Below are positions 5,882-27,271 of a stretch of DNA of 29,452 bases, piece after piece. The position numbers were made by a program, and so were the translations under genes. The stretch is from positions 1-29,452 of IMG/VR virus record IMGVR_UViG_3300042455_000910; one strand, 5' to 3'. Within the stretch, counting starts at the first letter, position 1. Each line of letters begins with the position of its first letter. Below the pieces are notes generated by a model. That model was not told where the DNA came from and searched no databases. It was given only the letters and a program-made list of their open reading frames with translations. Source of the DNA: a virus.

Positions 5882-6686
5882 AATCTTTTTTGATACGATT
5901 GTACCAGTTGTTAGCAATAATACGTTGACTTTGTTCGTTGCCGTGATATCCAGGATCCTCTCCTTTGAAAGTATTATTTCCACATATTGCCTGGGGGCTT
6001 TGCATAGATTCTAGTTGTATGTAACGATCTGGAATGTTTTTTGGAAATGCGTTGCGCCATTGATCTACGTTTTTAGGATTAAAAGGCCATAGTAAGTTTG
6101 GCAGTACTAAAAAGTTAATACCATCTAGATACATTTGTAATATACCTTCAATCATGATCCACTCATCCATTTGTTTTTTCCAAGCATTGTCGTAGATACT
6201 GTCAATCCATGCACGAACTCCGCGTTGTGCATCTTTGGTAATCTTTCCTGACCGATATGGATGTGGGTAGTTTTCTGCTAAACTAAAGATAGTTTCACAA
6301 ATCATATTATAGTTATTATTTCCATAGTTGACATTGTCAATGCCATCTCTACGATCATATCCATTCTTTAATTCACGATTTTGAAGGTGTTGTTCTAAAG
6401 GAGGATTCTCACCGCCCGGTATATTGTGTTCCCAATCGTACGGTGCAGAGGCAGCTGGTATCTCCATACGGTCCCAAAAGGTAGGACTAACTATTGCAAA
6501 GTCTGGACGTTGTCTGCGTATTTCTTCAATTTGAATACGAATACCACCGTTACTACAACCTTGACGAGCAAGATTAACCAAATCCCAATTTAACTTGTTA
6601 GCTAATACTTCACTCCAACTTGTGCCTGGAAGACTTTGACTTACCGCACTAAAACTACAACCGGCTACCATTAATTTTTTTTTCAT
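5868..6686 (-). CDS. SGNH/GDSL hydrolase-like protein
   Basis: A 272-aa protein whose N-terminus VAGCSFSA is the block I nucleophile region of the SGNH fold (GCS in place of GDS). A Gly/Asn block follows (ARQGCSNGGIR near 40-49) and a C-terminal GYHGNE may carry the catalytic His. Phage SGNH proteins of this type are common in T4-like genomes and are thought to act as esterases on glycans; the substrate is unknown. Coupled by ATGA to the PIG-L deacetylase upstream, which suggests a joint role in sugar modification. Confidence 0.75.
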   Translation of the reverse strand: MKKKLMVAGCSFSAVSQSLPGTSWSEVLANKLNWDLVNLARQGCSNGGIRIQIEEIRRQRPDFAIVSPTFWDRMEIPAASAPYDWEHNIPGGENPPLEQHLQNRELKNGYDRRDGIDNVNYGNNNYNMICETIFSLAENYPHPYRSGKITKDAQRGVRAWIDSIYDNAWKKQMDEWIMIEGILQMYLDGINFLVLPNLLWPFNPKNVDQWRNAFPKNIPDRYIQLESMQSPQAICGNNTFKGEDPGYHGNEQSQRIIANNWYNRIKKDFNLG

Positions 6687-7225
6687 GATCTATTTAACAG
6701 TCCTTTAACTGAGTCAGGAATAAAATATTCATTGGCATGTTCTACCTGATGAAAACTAGCTATAATTTTGCCATGTTCGGGCAATTCATCTAATGTATAA
6801 GTTCCTACCGGTATAACAAATCGTGCATTACCTTGGCCTATTTTAGAAAAAGTTACAGCATCAGGATGATAGTTTAATACAGCGTTGTGTACAAACACAT
6901 GATGCAGGTGTCCGTAATCACCTTCTGCGTTGTGTGTTACTACAATGTCTTGACCACCAACGGCTTCCTGAATATCAATCCATGCACGAGCTTCATCGAA
7001 ACTAATTTGTTTGTTTTCTATATCGTGCCAATTGTCAACGTAACCCAAAAACTTAGTAGAAATTCTACGTTTGTCCCAAAATGCTTTTAGTTCACTGCCG
7101 CGATAGTCGTCAGCTTCGTATGTAAGATAACACACCGTCCAATCTAAATTAGGGTGTGCATGCATGAAACTGTAAGCAAATATAACGCAGTCATCGGGGT
7201 GTGCTACCATTGCTATGGCTTTCAT
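6683..7225 (-). CDS. PIG-L/LmbE-family deacetylase
   Basis: A 180-aa protein with the family signature AHPDD at residues 8-12 and the second metal motif HNAEGDYGHLHH near 99-110. PIG-L enzymes are zinc-dependent N-deacetylases of GlcNAc-type sugars. It is somewhat shorter than typical members. ATGA overlaps on both sides place it in an operon with a DUF6492 protein and an SGNH protein, which fits a small sugar-modification unit. Confidence 0.85.
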   Translation of the reverse strand: MKAIAMVAHPDDCVIFAYSFMHAHPNLDWTVCYLTYEADDYRGSELKAFWDKRRISTKFLGYVDNWHDIENKQISFDEARAWIDIQEAVGGQDIVVTHNAEGDYGHLHHVFVHNAVLNYHPDAVTFSKIGQGNARFVIPVGTYTLDELPEHGKIIASFHQVEHANEYFIPDSVKGLLNRS

Positions 7226-8070
7226 ATCAAGTACTTTGCTTGAGTAATTTTCTTGCTTAATAATAAATCTTGATATTTTTGTTTTTGTGTGTAACTTAAT
7301 TTTGTCCAGGCATTTCGATGTATGCTAACAGTTAAGATATCAGGATATTGCATTTGTAAATATTTTTGATCAAATATTTCAATTTCGGTGTGACAAACAT
7401 TACACGGACAATAACTATTTTTGTCTCCGTTTACATACATAACATCTAAAGATCCTTGACGATATTGTAAGTATCCTGAATAAAGTATAAACTCAGTTAC
7501 CATCCCAGTGTGTTGAAACCATTCAGCAAAGGATTGATTAGTGAGAGTTTCAACTTCTTGGATCATGTCTCGCACAAGACTATTTTCAAAGAAAAACGGA
7601 ATACCCGCTGGCCCGGCCACATCAGTTTGTTGAATATCAAAAAGTTTGCTAACAATTTTTCTAGCTGTGTCAAATACCGGCATAACGGGAAAGTATCCCC
7701 AGGTTAACCGACCGCCATCATCAAAAAGTCTATTCAATTCAACTGATTGCACAATTAAAGTTTTAGCATCGAGCACCATTGACCAAGTACTTTTACTTTG
7801 TTCTGCAGCTAATAATTTTAATAATTGTTGTGTAAGCCACCCATTTTCAATGTAACTATTTTTCCACTGATTTCTATGAATAATTTTTACACGGGTGCTA
7901 TAATTCCCCCACCATGAAACATCAATATCATTTACATCCATGCTATCATCGTTAATAATCACACAGACATTACCAAGATCCATATTATCACAATATAAGT
8001 CTATGCTTTCGGCTTGCAGTTTTAATATAGGAAGTTCGTCACGGAATACTACGGTTACAATGTCTATCAT
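7222..8070 (-). CDS. DUF6492-type glycosyltransferase-like protein
   Basis: A 282-aa protein starting MIDIVTVVFRDELPILKLQ with the GWLTQQLLKL helix near residues 78-87 and a LDAKT triplet region near 101, as in the DUF6492 protein at 3903-4763. The usual acidic DxD is only partly kept (LDAKTL). The start at 8070 has no Shine-Dalgarno; a weak late-box match ACTAAGTA lies 5 nt upstream. It follows the porin terminator and leads the deacetylase/SGNH operon. Function inferred only from the family. Confidence 0.6.
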   Translation of the reverse strand: MIDIVTVVFRDELPILKLQAESIDLYCDNMDLGNVCVIINDDSMDVNDIDVSWWGNYSTRVKIIHRNQWKNSYIENGWLTQQLLKLLAAEQSKSTWSMVLDAKTLIVQSVELNRLFDDGGRLTWGYFPVMPVFDTARKIVSKLFDIQQTDVAGPAGIPFFFENSLVRDMIQEVETLTNQSFAEWFQHTGMVTEFILYSGYLQYRQGSLDVMYVNGDKNSYCPCNVCHTEIEIFDQKYLQMQYPDILTVSIHRNAWTKLSYTQKQKYQDLLLSKKITQAKYLI

Positions 8071-8087: not shown

Positions 8088-8116
8088 AAAAAAGCCCCGA
8101 AGGGCCTTTTTGCAGT
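8088..8116 (-). terminator. Terminator after the porin gene
   Basis: GCCC-TTCG-GGGC flanked by A- and T-runs gives a UUCG-loop hairpin with U6 on the minus strand, and A/T symmetry makes it usable from both strands. It lies 18 nt after the porin stop codon. Confidence 0.85.
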
Positions 8117-8133
8117 ACATATCTAATCAACGA

Positions 8134-9285
8134 TTAGAATGTATGACGTACACCTACTGCATAGTTACTAGAAGACAATGCTGGTGCTAAAGTAGCAACA
8201 TTGGTACTACTAGTTTTGTTCTGACCGTAGATTGCATACAAGTTTGTGCGCTTGCTCAACCAGTAGTTAGAACCAATCTGGAATGCGTTGAAGTTAACTG
8301 TAGGAGTTGTTGGACCAAATGCGTCATAACGACCATTACCTACACTAGCCCAGGCATCAATGGTAGAAGTAAAGTTACCACGAACGCCGATCTGTTGTGC
8401 AGTACGGCTGAGATAATTATTACTACTTAAAGTGCTAGTAGCTTTGCGTGAAACATATTGAGCAAAGGCCTTGACTACGCCAAAGTCATAAGTTGCACCA
8501 ACATACTTCTGTGTGTCTTGTGTGTTTACACCGCCACCAGGAATAACGCTACTAGAGTTGGTTGTCCAATATGTAGGACTGGAAAGAGTAAATGTTTGTT
8601 CGCTTTTTAAAGTTTGATAAGCGGCTACAACATATAACTTGTTCCAAGCATAATCAGCACTCAAACCATAACCATTGTAGTTCGTGTTGCCGCCGGTTGA
8701 GTTTGTTTGAGTAGTGTTGCTGTTTGCTACAGTAGCGAAACCACCAGCACTGAAACCTTTAAAGTTATCACTCTTCAGACTTACTGTATTAGCTGTGCGA
8801 ATTGTGTAAGCTGTGTTACTGCCGTTGCCAGAAGTAGTAGAGCTTGCACCAGTTGCATAGATAACATCACCGATCAAGTTATTTTGTTGACCAGCATCAG
8901 TTGCTGCCACTGCTGTGTGGATTGATGTATACTGAGTACCGAAAGCAACTTGGCCAATACCATTTTGTTTGATACCAACAAAACTTTGACGGTTGTCCCA
9001 GGTACTTGCTTGACCTTGGTTAGGTGTCAATCCAGTTTCAACAGTAAAGAAGGCTGAACGTCCGCCACCTAAATCTTCAGTGCCACGGAAACCTAAGCGG
9101 CTGGTTTGTTCTGCACTGTTACCGAATGTACTGTTTGTGGTTTTTGCAGCCTTGTTACCAACTGCGCCTTCTGCACTTGATCCGATGTAACCAGTATCTA
9201 AGAGACCATAGATGCTGACACTAGACTGTGCGTAAGCAGTGGTGATACCTGCGGTTGCTAGTAATGCTACTAGTAGTTTTTTCAT
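8134..9285 (-). CDS. Gram-negative outer-membrane porin (Burkholderiales type)
   Basis: A 383-aa protein with a signal peptide (MKKLLVALLATAGITTAYA, cleavage before QSS), then SSVSIYGLLDTGY, the first strand of betaproteobacterial trimeric porins. It continues with RLGFRGTEDLGGG and RQSFVGI at the family's usual positions, Gly/Ser/Asn-rich loops, and ends with a C-terminal Phe (VGVRHTF), the outer-membrane assembly signal. Length is normal for the family, so it looks intact. It has its own sigma70 promoter (9381-9409), an AAGGA Shine-Dalgarno and a strong terminator: a bacterial-style monocistronic unit among phage genes, suggesting acquisition from the host. Possible roles are receptor replacement, superinfection exclusion or altered uptake. 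Confidence 0.92.
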   Translation of the reverse strand: MKKLLVALLATAGITTAYAQSSVSIYGLLDTGYIGSSAEGAVGNKAAKTTNSTFGNSAEQTSRLGFRGTEDLGGGRSAFFTVETGLTPNQGQASTWDNRQSFVGIKQNGIGQVAFGTQYTSIHTAVAATDAGQQNNLIGDVIYATGASSTTSGNGSNTAYTIRTANTVSLKSDNFKGFSAGGFATVANSNTTQTNSTGGNTNYNGYGLSADYAWNKLYVVAAYQTLKSEQTFTLSSPTYWTTNSSSVIPGGGVNTQDTQKYVGATYDFGVVKAFAQYVSRKATSTLSSNNYLSRTAQQIGVRGNFTSTIDAWASVGNGRYDAFGPTTPTVNFNAFQIGSNYWLSKRTNLYAIYGQNKTSSTNVATLAPALSSSNYAVGVRHTF

Positions 9286-9380
9286 GCTGTGTGTTTCCTT
9301 TTATAAAAGTTATACAACAATATTATTTACTGAGTTTACTGTTGGTACAGCAAATTTCAGCACTATTATTGGTATTTTGT

Positions 9381-9409
9381 ATGTTAACATAGTAGTTAAC
9401 GAATGTCAA
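9381..9409 (-). promoter_or_regulatory. Sigma70 promoter of the porin gene
   Basis: TTGACA (9404-9409), 17-nt spacer, TAACAT (9381-9386). The -35 box directly follows the U-run of the tmRNA terminator. About 95 nt of leader precede the porin start. Confidence 0.7.
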
Positions 9410-9410
9410 T

Positions 9411-9436
9411 AAAAATGGGCTCCGAAGAGCCCATTT
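9411..9436 (-). terminator. Terminator of the tmRNA unit
   Basis: ATGGGCTC-TTCG-GAGCCCAT with further A:U pairs and a 5-U tail is a very strong UUCG-loop hairpin right after the tmRNA coding piece. Confidence 0.92.
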
Positions 9437-9685
9437 TGGTGGTTTCTGTTACGAGGCATTTCCTGCCCTAGGCGGCCTAAGCTGCCAATGCGAACTGTTC
9501 GTCGTTTGCTTTTACGTTATTTGCTTTTAACGAGTACTCCTCTCGTGTTGCCTTCTTTTCTATCTCACCACGTCGAAACCAAGTCATCCCCAAGAAATAC
9601 ACTATTTCAAATGCACTTTTTGGAGATGTCGGGAATTGAACCCGAGTCCGCAATGCCTTTAATCTAAAGGAATTACAACAATTCT
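9437..9685 (-). ncRNA. ssrA: tmRNA, circularly permuted (two-piece)
   Basis: Rescues stalled ribosomes and tags the nascent peptide. In transcription order the acceptor piece comes first (up to 9685, ending at 9621), then a 29-nt spacer, then the coding piece (from 9591). The acceptor piece has the T arm ACTCGGGTTCAATTCCCGA and ends CATCTCC + A with no encoded CCA. The coding piece starts GGGGATGACTTGGTTTCGAC, the tmRNA 5' signature. GGGGATG pairs with CATCTCC over 7 bp including the G3:U70 pair that marks alanine acceptance. The tag frame (9477-9509) encodes ANDEQFALAA and then TAG. AGGCATT in the acceptor piece can pair with AATGCCT near the 3' end of the coding piece. Two hairpins (9656-9670, 9670-9684) lie at the 5' side of the acceptor piece. 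Exact processed ends are not known. Confidence 0.93.
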
Positions 9686-9889
9686 TTACAGCGGAATAAT
9701 ATTTGATGCTTGCTTGCCTTTTGGGCCTTGCACTACATCAAAAGTTACCGCTTGATTCTCTTTGAGACTTTTAAATCCATTGCTATTAATAGCTGAGAAA
9801 TGTGCAAACAATTCGTCACCACCACCATCTGGAGTAATAAATCCAAAACCTTTTGCATCGTTAAACCACTTTACTTTACCTGTTGCCAT
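9686..9889 (-). CDS. Cold-shock domain protein (CspA family)
   Basis: A 67-aa protein that is a complete [21 protein letters not shown] holds RNP1 (KGFGFI), ELFAHFSAI is the RNP2 region, ending ASNIIPL. It should bind single-stranded RNA/DNA and melt RNA structure. I use the ATG at 9889, not an upstream one, because AAGGAAG lies just before it and the CSD starts there. It lies between the 55-aa gene and the acceptor piece of the tmRNA, whose 5' hairpin begins right after its stop, so a shared transcript must be cleaved. Confidence 0.92.
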
Positions 9890-9923
9890 ATTACTTACTT
9901 CCTTTATTAAAATACTTTGAATA

Positions 9924-10977: not shown

Positions 10978-11265
10978 TCAAGGATATATCTGGTCGCCTG
11001 ATTTTAGTAAGACCACGGTAAAAAGATCAGTTTTAAATTGGATGTTAAGTTTTCGAGCAAGATTGATTGCATGTCCAGGATTGGAGAAACTGACCTTCTT
11101 GTACTTAGGGCCAGGATATTGAACCAACAGGTTCGAGGTTTTAAGATTGATTGGTTTTTTTTGATAAAACACTGCCCACACACCTTCCGAGGCTAACACC
11201 TGTTCGGTCTTGTATGTACTTTTATTTGCTAACTCAATCAGGACATTGGGTTTTGGTCTGCTCAC
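10978..11265 (-). CDS. Hypothetical protein (95 aa)
   Basis: A 95-aa basic protein with no recognised domain. The start is GTG at 11265 with AGGAG 7 nt upstream. A CATAAATA box at 11287-11294 gives a late promoter with a 16-nt leader that contains the Shine-Dalgarno. It is followed at once by the 122-aa gene, so the two look like a unit. Confidence 0.6.
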   Translation of the reverse strand: MSRPKPNVLIELANKSTYKTEQVLASEGVWAVFYQKKPINLKTSNLLVQYPGPKYKKVSFSNPGHAINLARKLNIQFKTDLFTVVLLKSGDQIYP

Positions 11266-11957: not shown

Positions 11958-12142
11958 TTAGTACTCCTCTTTCGACATTCTTCTTGTACTGCTACTGGCA
12001 CATCTGGGTGCCAACCGCCTATCACCTTGCGGCAATCGTATTTTACTACTATTTGATTTTGATCCTGGGGCCAAAAGGCCAAGACCAACATGCCTAAAAC
12101 AATAGCGAATGTTACAGCGGTCCAAAATAAATCTTTAGCCAT
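11954..12142 (-). CDS. Small single-pass membrane protein (62 aa)
   Basis: A 62-aa protein with one membrane segment at about residues 7-24 and a short soluble tail holding two Cys (YDCRKV and EECRK), which could form a disulfide in the periplasm. It overlaps the 5'-3' exonuclease gene upstream by 8 nt and the 155-aa gene downstream by 4 nt. Function unknown. Confidence 0.6.
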   Translation of the reverse strand: MAKDLFWTAVTFAIVLGMLVLAFWPQDQNQIVVKYDCRKVIGGWHPDVPVAVQEECRKRSTK

Positions 12143-13148
12143 TTAACATTCCTTTGTAAGGACCTTTGTAAGTTTCATTCATCCAACGACCGAAGCTGTC
12201 TGCTTGCTCGCTCAATTTGTTTAATTCGTACTTGCCACAGAACTGCATAAAACGTACACCAACTTGTCCTACATCTTTATGAGACATCTGTTCGCGAATG
12301 GCCCCATCTACTGCTGCTTTAATCTCTTTGGGTTGGGCAGTTAAATCTACTAGATGAACGTTGCGTTCATAGTCATCTAACACACGATGCTCTATGCCAT
12401 CCGGATCAGTCCACCTCTGTAACATTAAGTTGTTCCAGTTGTATCCTTGTTTTGTGCGATCCTCAAATGCTTCCTGTAGGCCAACCTTATTCTTAGTGCC
12501 CTTAGTACGGACTCCCGGGTAGGCCGAGAACACATTATCCGACGAATCGCCGCGCATACATTTCTCGAAGAGTAGCCATTGCGGATTAGGGATTGTTTTA
12601 GGTTCTTTAGTTTTTTTATCGATGACCGCTTTTCCTTTAGCATCAAAGATTCCTTCTATAGTGATTAGTTCGTCTGTAATACCGTTGTACTGCTTAACAT
12701 TGGGTGCGATGAGCTGAACAAAGTCAGTATCGCTACTGATAATAATATGTTCGTCTTGGGGATGTAATGCAATCCAGCGAGCTATAATGTCATCTGCTTC
12801 GGCATTTTCGTGCCTAATAACGCTACAGTTAGTTCTCTCTGACAAGTATTTAGTCAAATTATCATAGGTTTCCCAAAACATTTTATCTTCTTCTTGCTGG
12901 GTTTCTGTAAGTGCGGCACGGGCCACAGCCCGATTGGCTTTATAGGGCTTATAAAAGTCCTTGCGCCAACTACGTCCTTCAAGGCCAAACACTACATGGT
13001 CTGCTTCAAAACGCTTGGCTACTTTGTTAGCGGCCATTAATGTAACATGTAATGCAAAGCCTACTTTCTCCCAAGTATCGCTTGCACGGTGAGCACCATG
13101 CCTGGCTCGAAAAAACATATTGGCCGTATCGATTAAAACATAGCGCAT
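12135..13148 (-). CDS. 5'-3' exonuclease (FEN/T4 RNase H type)
   Basis: A 337-aa structure-specific nuclease that should remove RNA primers and flaps during phage DNA replication. Metal-binding acidic motifs are in family order: LIDTANMFFRAR at residues 5-16, EADDIIARW near 117-125, SSDTDFVQL near 138-146 and GDSSDNV near 201-207, followed by the helix-hairpin-helix region (KNKVGLQEAF). Length is close to T4 RNase H and the exonuclease domain of DNA polymerase I. Supports a T4-like replication system. The ATG at 13148 has AAGG a short way upstream. Confidence 0.92.
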   Translation of the reverse strand: MRYVLIDTANMFFRARHGAHRASDTWEKVGFALHVTLMAANKVAKRFEADHVVFGLEGRSWRKDFYKPYKANRAVARAALTETQQEEDKMFWETYDNLTKYLSERTNCSVIRHENAEADDIIARWIALHPQDEHIIISSDTDFVQLIAPNVKQYNGITDELITIEGIFDAKGKAVIDKKTKEPKTIPNPQWLLFEKCMRGDSSDNVFSAYPGVRTKGTKNKVGLQEAFEDRTKQGYNWNNLMLQRWTDPDGIEHRVLDDYERNVHLVDLTAQPKEIKAAVDGAIREQMSHKDVGQVGVRFMQFCGKYELNKLSEQADSFGRWMNETYKGPYKGMLNG

Positions 13149-14927: not shown

Positions 14928-15176
14928 TCATCTATTCTTTAAACACCAAATCAAATGCTCTTCAACTGTATGCCAGTTGTACTCATACACTGGCGTACCC
15001 GGACCAGTCCACATGGCCATTCCTTCATACCCATACTTCAACCATATGATTTGATTACCGCGAATACAACGATGTGGCCACCAAGCAAATTCGCGCCGCC
15101 AACTTGCCCGTTGATAAAAACTACCTTGGCCGCCGAATAAACTATCTAGTGGCGGCACACTATTTGCCCCAACCAT
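14928..15176 (-). CDS. Small Trp-rich phage protein (82 aa)
   Basis: An 82-aa protein with an unusually high Trp/Tyr content (ASWRREFAWWPHRC near residues 25-38, IIWLKYGYEG near 43-52, ending HLIWCLKNR). I start it at the ATG at 15176, which overlaps the queE stop by 17 nt and has a TGTGGGG purine stretch upstream; a longer ORF reaches 15242 but would overlap queE more. Similar small WP-motif proteins seem common in T4-like phages. Function unknown. Confidence 0.6.
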   Translation of the reverse strand: MVGANSVPPLDSLFGGQGSFYQRASWRREFAWWPHRCIRGNQIIWLKYGYEGMAMWTGPGTPVYEYNWHTVEEHLIWCLKNR

Positions 15177-16020
15177 TACCCCACAAGTCCACATGCAATC
15201 TAGGACTATAATTCCAACCCTGCTCACAGCAAATGTTGGCAATACGCAGTTTATTTTCGTCGTAGGGCTTAACTACACCACCTTGTGGCATCAAGTATAT
15301 TTTGCCCTCAAAGCCGCCAGCTCTAAATGTATCACTGGCTCGAATAGCTTCAATAATATGTTCATCTGTTTCTACAACAAACTTGAGATAGGTGTGTCCA
15401 TGCTCTTGATAGCTGGTTACAATCTCAGGACAAATAGCATCATCCCATGATTCTCCTGAGGCACTTAATTTAGCACTGACACTGAATGTAACTTGTCTAC
15501 GTAGATCTCGTTTTACCCATTCGTCTAGATACTGTTTGAAATCATCATGCAACTCTTGAGTTCCGTTGGTTTCGAATGTAATATTTAACAAGTCTTCCAT
15601 GCGAGGATGACTCAGTAATTCTTTGTATGCACGTTGCCAACCTAGCAAGGGTTCGCCACCTGTGATCACAAGATGCACGTCGTTGCCATTATTCTGCCCC
15701 CACATGTTGTTAGGAGTCAATGCTAACATACGCTCTACCAATTCTTCAGTAGGTTGTGTAGGACTTAGATGCTTAAACGCAGGATGCCAACTTGCATAAC
15801 TGTCACACCCTGTTTCAACAAGCGGTAACTCTAGGAAGTTATTGTACAAGTGTACAACTTCAGCCACATCGTCGGCACCTGTTGACTTTTCTCCTGGCTT
15901 GCAACCAAATCCCGCACAGGTAAAGTTACATCCGTATGTTCTTAGGAACACACTAGGAACCCCAACAAAGCGTCCTTCGCCTTGTAAACTATAAAATAAT
16001 TCGCTAACTTTAATTTTCAT
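15160..16020 (-). CDS. queE: 7-carboxy-7-deazaguanine synthase, phage-type QueE
   Basis: A 286-aa radical SAM enzyme converting 6-carboxytetrahydropterin to 7-carboxy-7-deazaguanine. Signature: FYSLQGEGRFVGVPSVFLRT at residues 9-28, Cys-rich SAM cluster region GCNFTCAGFGCKPG (31-44), ITGGEPLLGWQ near 120-130 and FETNGT near 149. The Cys spacing (CX3CX4C) differs from the CX3CX2C of most radical SAM proteins, and additional Cys follow, as in phage QueE forms. It works with QueD (26720) and the QueF-like protein (27966). No Shine-Dalgarno; the late-box variant TCTAAATA lies 5 nt before the ATG. Confidence 0.92.
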   Translation of the reverse strand: MKIKVSELFYSLQGEGRFVGVPSVFLRTYGCNFTCAGFGCKPGEKSTGADDVAEVVHLYNNFLELPLVETGCDSYASWHPAFKHLSPTQPTEELVERMLALTPNNMWGQNNGNDVHLVITGGEPLLGWQRAYKELLSHPRMEDLLNITFETNGTQELHDDFKQYLDEWVKRDLRRQVTFSVSAKLSASGESWDDAICPEIVTSYQEHGHTYLKFVVETDEHIIEAIRASDTFRAGGFEGKIYLMPQGGVVKPYDENKLRIANICCEQGWNYSPRLHVDLWGNGWGK

Positions 16021-17540: not shown

Positions 17541-18037
17541 TAATTCTTCCACCAATCTTCCCAAGGGAATACAATCCACGAATCTTCTTCGGCTTTATTG
17601 ATATCAACTGCGCTGTAATCAATACGTTTAAACTCACTTGCTTCGTTGTTGACTAGCACAGTGAATCGAACAGAATCGTTCCAAATAGTCAACCAGGGTT
17701 CTGGTTTACTAGGGTGAAAATCCTCCCAATCTTCTTTAATCCAATTTAATGTAGCACCAGAATCGTTGATGTCGTCAACAATAAGAATGTTCTTACCGTT
17801 GTAAGCATCTTCGGCCATCCATAGATTATGTTCGGGTTTGTTTCCATCGTCACGCAGGCTTACCTTAAGGCATTCCATCGGAACTTCTAAGTATTGACTA
17901 ATTAGGTTAGCAGGTGTAAGACCACCACGTGTTAATCCCACAACATAGTCTGGGCGCCAATCACTGGCATTAATTTGGCGCAGGATTTCTTGAGTTTGTT
18001 TTTCAACTGCCCGCCAAGTATGGTAGATTTTTTTCAT
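17540..18037 (-). CDS. Purine phosphoribosyltransferase-like (XGPRT type)
   Basis: A 165-aa type I PRTase. The PRPP-binding motif ILIVDDINDSGATL lies near residues 84-97, an early VVGLTRGGLTPA near 32-43, and the C-terminal SWIVFPWE is typical of xanthine-guanine PRTases. It may salvage guanine or handle a deazaguanine-type base, given the Que genes nearby (speculative). Coupled to kdsA by ATGA. Confidence 0.85.
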   Translation of the reverse strand: MKKIYHTWRAVEKQTQEILRQINASDWRPDYVVGLTRGGLTPANLISQYLEVPMECLKVSLRDDGNKPEHNLWMAEDAYNGKNILIVDDINDSGATLNWIKEDWEDFHPSKPEPWLTIWNDSVRFTVLVNNEASEFKRIDYSAVDINKAEEDSWIVFPWEDWWKN

Positions 18038-18855
18038 TTAACGATACCGTCTATTTGTTTAAGTTTAGCTAAAATTGATTCGAGGTCATCCAACGCAATC
18101 ATGTTAGGACCATCGCTGGGTGCGTTATCGGGATCTTCGTGACATTCCATAAACACAGCAGAAACACATCCTGTGGCAACAGCAGCGCGAGCCAAGTAAG
18201 GAACCATAGTTCGATCACCCCCTGATGTTGATCCGTTTGCTCCTGGGCGTTGTACACTGTGCGTAGCATCAAACACCACTGGAAATCCTGTACGGGCCAT
18301 AGTAGGCAAACTAGTCATATCGACCACTAAAGTATTATAACCATGTGTAACCCCACGCTCGCATAACATAACTTTATGATTGCCTGTGCTAACAACTTTT
18401 TCTGCGGCACTAACAATATCCCATGGAGCCATAAATTGCCCTTTTTTAATATTAACTGTGAGTCCAGTCTCGCCAGCAGCAACAAGTAAATCTGTTTGTC
18501 GGCTTAAGAACGCCGGTATTTGCAATATATCAATTCCAGCATCGGCACATATCTGTGCCTGTTCGGGTAAGTGAATATCAGTCAACACCGGAATGCCAAA
18601 CTTATGTTTGATGCTGTTTAATATCTGCAGACCTTCGTTGATACCGGCACCTCGAGGAGTGTTAACACTACTTCGATTGGCTTTATCAAAACTACTTTTA
18701 TAAACTAAATTAATACCAAGCAGTTGGCAAATTTCTTTTAAACGGCCGGCTGTTTGTTCAGCATGGTCTAAACTTTCAATTTGACAAGGGCCAGCAATTA
18801 ACACAAATGGTGCTGAATTATTAAATTCTATATGGTTAACAAAGAATGATTTCAT
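18034..18855 (-). CDS. kdsA: 3-deoxy-8-phosphooctulonate synthase (KdsA)
   Basis: Condenses arabinose-5-phosphate with phosphoenolpyruvate to Kdo-8-phosphate, the first committed step of Kdo for LPS inner core. A full-length TIM-barrel (273 aa): IAGPCQIES near residues 20-28, YKSSFDKANRSS (near 51-62), GIPVLTDIHLPEQA, DILQIPAFLSRQTDLL, NIKKGQFMAPWD, ERGVTHGYNTLVVDM and FDATHSVQRPG all match the family. I start at the ATG at 18855; an upstream GTG lies in the -10 box. It has its own sigma70 promoter and no room for a Shine-Dalgarno. No KdsB, KdsC, KdsD or Kdo transferase is present in the window, so host enzymes would complete the pathway. Confidence 0.95.
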   Translation of the reverse strand: MKSFFVNHIEFNNSAPFVLIAGPCQIESLDHAEQTAGRLKEICQLLGINLVYKSSFDKANRSSVNTPRGAGINEGLQILNSIKHKFGIPVLTDIHLPEQAQICADAGIDILQIPAFLSRQTDLLVAAGETGLTVNIKKGQFMAPWDIVSAAEKVVSTGNHKVMLCERGVTHGYNTLVVDMTSLPTMARTGFPVVFDATHSVQRPGANGSTSGGDRTMVPYLARAAVATGCVSAVFMECHEDPDNAPSDGPNMIALDDLESILAKLKQIDGIVK

Positions 18856-18861
18856 ACAGTT

Positions 18862-18891
18862 ATTATACACGAACTGTATTTAGATTGTCAA
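18862..18891 (-). promoter_or_regulatory. Sigma70 promoter of kdsA
   Basis: TTGACA (18886-18891), 18-nt spacer, TATAAT (18862-18867). The -35 overlaps the stop codon of the epimerase gene. Only 6 nt separate the -10 from the kdsA ATG, so the transcript would be almost or fully leaderless. Confidence 0.75.
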
Positions 18892-26719: not shown

Positions 26720-27271
26720 TCACGCAAACAAATCTTCGTTCCATTCGCGATGTCCTTCGCGGAACGCCATATTACTTTGTGTTTCACGCACTTCTATACG
26801 ATAGCACCATAAACGACGGGCTTCTTCTGGCCCCCACATGTCTGGAATGTAAACACCGTTGACATACTTGTAAAGCATGTCTGCCAGGCCTTCGCAACCC
26901 AGGCGTGGAAGAATAGTTAGCTTGGCCATGTTCTTTGATTCTAATAGTTTGTATGTTTCTAGTTCTGGATCATCTTCGGCCACTAACAGTGTATGATCAA
27001 ACTGACTCTGTAACACTTCTTTGAGTTCCTTTAATCCACCATAGTCAGCAGCCCAGTTACGCACATCCAAGTCGTTAGTTCCAAAGTAAAATTTCATGCT
27101 AAATGCGTATCCATGAATTAAGTTACAATGGCTGTCGGCCTTCCATTGGCGATATGCTACAGGGAATTGGTCTACATACTCTTTGGTACTGGTAAATTTG
27201 TAAGTGATTGGTCGCACCTGTTGCTGTTCGTTGATAGCTCGGATTACTTCTGTTTCGTTATAATAAATCAT
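26720..27271 (-). CDS. queD: 6-carboxytetrahydropterin synthase-like, phage-type QueD
   Basis: A 183-aa protein of the QueD/PTPS family. SHCNLIHGYAFSM near residues 47-59 carries the catalytic Cys and a zinc His; the canonical HGH is HGY here. WAADYGGLKELK near 73-84 and FDHTLLVAEDDPE near 91-103 (catalytic Asp-His) follow, with the Glu in RIEVRET near 161-167. Feeds QueE (15160) with 6-carboxytetrahydropterin. AGGAG precedes the ATG at 27271 and a sigma70 promoter lies at 27290-27319. Confidence 0.87.
   Translation of the reverse strand: MIYYNETEVIRAINEQQQVRPITYKFTSTKEYVDQFPVAYRQWKADSHCNLIHGYAFSMKFYFGTNDLDVRNWAADYGGLKELKEVLQSQFDHTLLVAEDDPELETYKLLESKNMAKLTILPRLGCEGLADMLYKYVNGVYIPDMWGPEEARRLWCYRIEVRETQSNMAFREGHREWNEDLFA

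Follow-up and report, generated by a model that had tools for sequence, protein, structure and literature searches.

A porin gene beside a permuted tmRNA

We analyzed a stretch of 29,452 nucleotides of viral DNA (IMG/VR record IMGVR_UViG_3300042455_000910; hereafter the window), in which a gene on the minus strand (8134-9285) encodes a 383-aa outer-membrane porin of the Porin_4 family, starting with MKKLLVALLATAGITTAYAQ and ending in RHTF. The Porin_4 match (4.8e-37; 128.8 bits against a curated cut-off of 27) spans positions 3-308 of the 310 in the profile, and Porin_1 was also matched (1.6e-12). A Sec signal peptide at about residues 1-19 (MKKLLVALLATAGITTAYA|Q), identified by eye with no dedicated predictor, and the C-terminal aromatic residue for BAM, a Phe, were both present in the 383-aa sequence, as a first-pass annotation of this DNA had noted. 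The closest solved structures in a phmmer search of the PDB were BpsOmp38, Omp32, and PorB, that is, Burkholderiales and neisserial porins. The AlphaFold model (pLDDT 41) was too poor for a fold search, with a barrel-like strand pattern. No PHROGs family matched the porin, and tblastn against 50,697 phage records returned no relative.

Directly downstream of the porin, on the same strand, lies a gene for a DUF6492 protein (7222-8070), followed by a PIG-L family deacetylase (6683-7225, minus strand); both are conserved flanks of the site, and DUF6492 is also directly downstream of the barrel gene in the related contigs L005 and L066 and colinear in L175. An intrinsic terminator-like hairpin with a UUCG loop (8088-8111, minus strand) stands 3' of the porin. 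Read from the sequence and not called under a stricter terminator-finding rule, this hairpin keeps its fold with an altered stem sequence in L005, L066, and L175, which supports the earlier claim that the gene has its own terminator. Upstream is a permuted (two-piece) tmRNA with the tag ANDEQFALAA (9386-9721, minus strand; ARAGORN 9386-9710, Rfam 9410-9721), matched by RF01850 (beta_tmRNA, 174 bits) and the permuted family RF04321 (138.7 bits). The tmRNA unit ends in a second terminator-like hairpin (9412-9437, minus strand; listed on the plus strand by the program, the hairpin being symmetrical). The first-pass annotation had placed the porin between sugar-modification and tmRNA units, and this arrangement was found, with DUF6492 and the deacetylase downstream and the permuted tmRNA upstream. 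It had also described an autonomous unit on a lytic-type phage, a description supported by the terminator-like hairpins on both sides. The unit has the layout of a moron: a position between conserved phage genes, these hairpins, a late-type box or sigma70-like site, and a site that is empty in the cultured phage Paride.

A cold-shock protein gene (9686-9892, minus strand) lies upstream of the tmRNA and overlaps its start by about 25 nt (9686-9710), and the same gene pair occurs in L085. For the tmRNAs of related phages (L005:9473-9901, L066:13014-13433, L085:16010-16427, and others), ARAGORN predicted unusually long tags, about 29 aa with LAV or FAV at the end, in contrast to the tag of the window. 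At 18034-18870, the window encodes a DAHP_synth_1-family protein resembling KdsA (Kdo-8-phosphate synthase); since its neighbours are sugar and glycosyl genes, surface sugars may be a further target of the phage. QueE-like (15160-16020) and QueD-like (26720-27271) proteins belong to the 7-deazaguanine pathway, probably for DNA modification.

Phage group

The window phage is best placed among large T4-like phages, with PA5oct and Paride (Wroclawvirus, Arenbergviridae) as nearest cultured kin. These two phages have a core gene order in common with the window; in Paride, the order QueE, 14496 homologue, exonuclease, 11490 homologue, and 10978 homologue is kept. The last of these in the window is a 95-aa conserved core gene upstream of the porin site (10978-11265, minus strand), with a homologue in Paride, and the 5'-3' exonuclease, our core anchor gene (12135-13148, minus strand), is 52% identical to that of PA5oct/Paride. 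Core synteny and core protein similarity with PA5oct/Paride, compared over a partial genome, mark the window phage as Arenbergviridae-like. After the 10978 homologue of Paride, no tmRNA and no barrel were found. T4-type genes for scaffold, tail sheath, and tail tube are present on related contigs of 235 and 337 kb. The 337-kb contig, which bears a porin, also holds genes for CsgF (curli secretion; L265:15091-15531) and a CHASE2-domain protein (L265:18795-20000).

Conservation of the porin

An intact porin frame was identified in 4 further viral contigs (L002, L003, L004, and L005). The gene in L002 and L003 was identical to that of the window (0 differences), that of L004 had 1 nucleotide change, and the porin of L005 had 86% amino acid identity with the same neighbours, so a search for this porin in related phage contigs, as had been proposed, was productive. 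With the full-profile Porin_4 match, the intact frame in 5 viral contigs confirms the earlier description of a complete host-type porin. L002, L003, and L004 were colinear with the window through both porin junctions over 7.5-22.7 kb at 99.98-100%, and an assembly join, which had been named as a possible refutation, is excluded because three near-identical contigs are colinear across both junctions. A host-type gene within a 29-kb fragment could have arisen where assembly joined host DNA to phage DNA, but the probability of such an artefact is negligible: it is already refuted by these independent contigs, diverged relatives also have phage flanks, and a tail sheath gene and a porin are on one 337-kb contig.

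Between the window and L005 porins, dN was 0.080 and dS 0.477 (dN/dS 0.17), from which we conclude that the porin is kept by selection and is not a decaying passenger. The ratio was 0.12-0.18 in other phage porin pairs and 0.08-0.18 over all pairs tested, and the check for purifying selection advised by the first-pass annotation was thereby answered in the affirmative. Across the same two phages, dS was 0.48 for the porin, 0.58 for the exonuclease, 0.82 for another gene, and 1.6-2.1 for most neighbours. The low porin dS suggests a recent exchange between the window phage and the L005 phage; alternatively, it may reflect codon constraint in a highly expressed gene.

Leader and expression signals

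The porin is preceded by a 5' leader conserved across barrel families (9286-9335, minus strand), which ends in the ribosome-binding region AAAAGGAAA and is nearly identical for about 48 nt to the leader that precedes a TorF barrel in L175. Within it, a late-type promoter box, GTAAATA (9324-9330, minus strand), lies 45 nt upstream of the ATG. The T4-type late promoter is defined by a TATAAATA-type box at a set upstream distance, with the T4 consensus ATAAATA, of which the GTAAATA of the window falls short. A sigma70-like site, TTGACA-17-TAACAT (9381-9409, minus strand), is alone not above chance, with 5 sigma70-like matches in the region against 3.9 +/- 2.0 in shuffles; L005 has TTGCAT-17-TATAAT at the matching place. 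The first-pass annotation had assigned the gene its own sigma70 promoter, a call not upheld by these counts, and the element conserved in the family is the late-type box.

Of 81 distinct barrel leaders, 49 had NTAAATA at 30-70 nt upstream of the ATG (shuffles 5.6), and 32 had CACTAAATA (shuffles 0.1). The NTAAATA box was missing from 32 of the 81 leaders, many of which show TTGAC...TATAAT-like sites. The same motif was enriched 10-40 nt before ORFs in the related 235- and 337-kb contigs, where it precedes tail sheath, tail tube, and scaffold genes, and ATAAATA occurred 12 times in the 30-39 bin before ORFs of the large contigs (0.31 expected). Because NTAAATA is found in the leaders and is enriched before ORFs that include tail and scaffold genes, late expression of the slot barrel is likely.

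Covariation supported a leader hairpin after the box in related phages (13 leaders; 7 double-change cells against 2.6; 2 of 500 shuffles). No stable stem was found in the window and L005 leaders (-2.5 kcal/mol, z about 0), and for this reason the hairpin was rejected as part of the window feature.

A slot for outer-membrane barrels

In 80 viral loci around the exonuclease, the gene after the tmRNA encodes a signal-peptide barrel of varying family. We identified four families of occupants: Porin_4, TorF/Gcw_chp (TIGR02001), a 150-160 aa OMP_b-brl-like barrel, and a 184-aa barrel-like protein. The small barrel was modelled with 8 strands (pLDDT 80) and matched NspA, OmpA, OmpX, and Ail, so what the slot occupants share is not a wide pore. 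In these exonuclease loci, drawn without selection for barrels, a barrel came within 110 nt after 8 of the 12 tmRNA genes that had sequence behind them. Among 119 loci selected by their barrels, ARAGORN placed a tmRNA within 600 nt upstream in 52, a lower bound because Rfam recovered tmRNAs missed by ARAGORN in six loci (L136, L139, L153, L156, L174, and L175). The order was reversed in L102, with the porin first and the tmRNA after it. A search for hosts of the small barrels in 250 Burkholderiales genomes, run with no positive control, gave no match at 1e-8. Gcw_chp matches in 'Acinetobacter phage MD-2021a' were dropped as phage barrels since their catechol-degradation neighbours identify bacterial DNA; L291 (CAKLQF020000008.1), labelled Acinetobacter phage, carries catechol-degradation genes and represents bacterial DNA in the phage collection.

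Exchange at this site was seen on comparing the window with its sister L175. The flanks on either side of the slot align at 77-90%, and a 200-nt stretch comprising the leader and signal peptide is common to both. Between this stretch and the terminator there is no alignment, with a porin in one and TorF in the other. The alignments indicate that the body of the barrel is exchanged between constant flanks and behind a constant 5' leader. A single barrel was present in 35 of 37 loci over the stretch covered, and tandem pairs in the other two, L175 (4917-6735, TorF and TorF) and L208 (5229-6693, 184-aa type and TorF), are possible intermediates of barrel exchange.

On a core-gene tree of the 37 loci, built from DNA of the exonuclease and the 95-aa gene, occupant family required 15 changes, against a mean of 14.0 for shuffled labels; a protein tree also gave 15 changes, and branches with support of at least 95 force at least 10 changes between TorF and non-TorF. 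The slot occupant is without detectable phylogenetic signal, in a count that rests on one anchor region, short stretches, and loci partly selected by barrel type. The exonuclease anchor may itself recombine and so inflate the number of occupant changes. For a clade of large T4-like aquatic phages, we propose a dedicated, late-expressed barrel slot coupled to the permuted tmRNA, where unrelated families (16-stranded porin, TorF, 8-stranded, and 184-aa type) would be swapped behind a common leader and would re-surface the infected cell; we regard the chances of this proposal as evenly balanced.

Origin of the porin and presumed host

The best genome-collection match to the window porin was in a Polynucleobacter MAG, at 53-59% identity, and 70 of 101 genomes drawn from the genus had relatives of the porin at 1e-20 or better. 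Among 200 genomes sampled family-wide and 300 order-wide, every match at 1e-85 came from a small genome (1.7-2.2 Mb). The window porin, Omp32, BpsOmp38, and the Polynucleobacter chromosomal porins are full-length members of one family; unlike the chromosomal porins, the phage porin has a phage-type leader and is at most 59% identical to that of any genome found. On the porin tree, window and L005 pair on a long stem (0.38 changes per site) inside the Polynucleobacter radiation, which together with the identity of up to 59% agrees with a Polynucleobacter-like porin. The first-pass annotation would have given way to a porin tree placing the gene inside one host's chromosomal locus with identical flanks; we found phage flanks and a long branch of its own.

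A second phage group (L135, L136, L137, and L139) and L138 stand apart from the window/L005 pair. The tree has phage porins at 2-3 places, and a single clade of slot porins was not rejected by the AU test (p 0.36); since a single clade is left possible, several acquisitions were not preferred over one, and no number is claimed. From the kinship of the porin with Polynucleobacter porins, the phage is probably of freshwater, with Polynucleobacter as its presumed host.

Proposed function and alternatives

We propose that the phage would make a general trimeric-type porin of Polynucleobacter origin, probably late in infection, and place it in the outer membrane of the host. For a member of this family, Sec export and insertion by BAM would be expected, as would transcription of the autonomous unit. 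The porin would currently fill a slot, next to the tmRNA of the phage, at which outer-membrane barrels are exchanged, and the common product of this slot would be a new barrel in the host outer membrane and not a particular channel. Such a barrel would remodel the cell surface and so limit superinfection by competitors, or limit the loss of progeny that re-adsorb to cells producing phage or already lysed; changing hosts and rivals would drive occupant turnover. A surface-remodelling cassette that limits superinfection or re-adsorption is the most likely reading of the locus, one that we hold tentatively and put a little short of an even chance, with Lc of PA-2 and Lom of lambda as precedents; its late expression, membrane insertion, and exclusion function are what we infer from sequence. 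As neighbours fill the slot with barrels that should not conduct solutes, an altered surface is taken as the selected property, and the fact that pore-forming barrels and small 8-stranded ones replace each other points rather to a surface role. Known lytic phages usually exclude superinfection early in infection, and the late-looking conserved box counts against the exclusion reading on that ground.

Nutrient entry, which like superinfection exclusion had been suggested in the first-pass annotation, is the main rival, second after surface remodelling and rather unlikely. The porin would raise outer-membrane permeability, so that the infected cell, a streamlined oligotroph, could go on taking up small organic acids while a large genome is being replicated over a long period, the porin working with phage-encoded periplasmic receptors. 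The gene belongs to a general porin family related to Omp32, which was solved with malate (2fgq, title), and the window's own virus encodes a TctC receptor with a signal peptide (in L049). L115 and L120 encode TctC as well, and the 337-kb porin-bearing contig encodes both TctC and DctP; these receptors count against the surface reading and fit uptake. However, small 8-stranded barrels, from which no solute conduction is expected, also occupy the slot, the kind of barrel does not follow phage lineage, and the viral scan returned only one other relative of the TctC of the window's virus (76%).

The receptor genes were located as follows. The TctC-type periplasmic receptor of the window's virus (L049:15593-16510, minus strand; PF03401, 3.6e-10) has a clear TTGACA...TATAAT upstream. 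Further TctC genes were at L115:18946-19845, L120:18426-19310, and L273:12320-13210, one being in the 337-kb porin-bearing contig, and the DctP (TRAP) receptor of the 337-kb contig (L273:8419-9366, 3.2e-54) seems to lack a signal peptide.

Insertions can gather neutrally at a hot spot next to an RNA gene, and the barrels could be neutral or weakly selected cargo, host genes collected by chance in the tmRNA region. This is improbable and already disfavoured: in the unselected sample, something other than a barrel comes after 4 of the 12 tmRNA genes, and Paride is without tmRNA or barrel there, but four unrelated families are all outer-membrane barrels with signal peptides and related leaders, and the porin is under purifying selection.

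There is a slim chance that the barrel aids lysis, late massive synthesis overloading the assembly machinery or weakening the membrane and so helping release. The late-type box would suit this, as would the CsgF gene in the 337-kb porin-bearing contig, CsgGF having been proposed in lysis regulation of a methylophage with a two-piece tmRNA (PMC9004378). Against it, a complete folded barrel is under purifying selection, and no special link to lysis genes was seen in the window. Spanins, moreover, are the usual agents of lysis.

Relation to known systems

Two-piece tmRNA in aquatic phages and phage CsgGF pores have already been described (PMC9004378). The Melnitz-like methylophages of that study resemble the window phage in being aquatic and in having a two-piece tmRNA and phage-encoded outer-membrane pore genes (CsgGF); their tmRNA lies upstream of a transcription coactivator gene, and a porin is not mentioned (PMC9004378). 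Searches of the open-access literature turned up no description of such phages with a porin or a barrel slot.

What is known of phage-encoded outer-membrane proteins comes mostly from isolated examples in temperate lambdoid phages. The Lc porin of lambdoid phage PA-2 and NmpC of the defective qsr' prophage are complete host-type trimeric porins, and Lc has been reported to exclude superinfection through receptor replacement. The window porin is likewise a phage-borne, complete, host-type porin, predicted to be trimeric, in an accessory unit. Lc and NmpC, however, are Enterobacteriaceae porins of temperate lambdoid phages, whereas the window has a Burkholderiales Porin_4 protein in a large T4-like phage; unlike them, it occupies a tmRNA-linked slot with a late-type leader and exchange with unrelated barrels. 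Lom of phage lambda, of the Ail/OmpX/PagC/Lom family, is a small outer-membrane barrel. The small slot occupant is similarly a phage-encoded small barrel, its 8-stranded, NspA/OmpA/OmpX/Ail-like structure being a model, so that the likeness is structural; unlike Lom, it sits in a slot where porins are found in other phages.

Here, large lytic-type phages maintain, as an entire group, a site for a barrel, and its kind is swapped as fast as the data resolve. Unrelated barrels at the same tmRNA-side spot suggest that these phages re-dress the surface of the cell being killed. Whether the benefit lies in the channel or the surface is a question that the slot makes testable and single cases cannot. 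A tmRNA with a barrel gene after it can serve as a marker in the search for more phage surface proteins, and the bacterial relatives of a porin indicate likely hosts, here Polynucleobacter, of uncultured phages.
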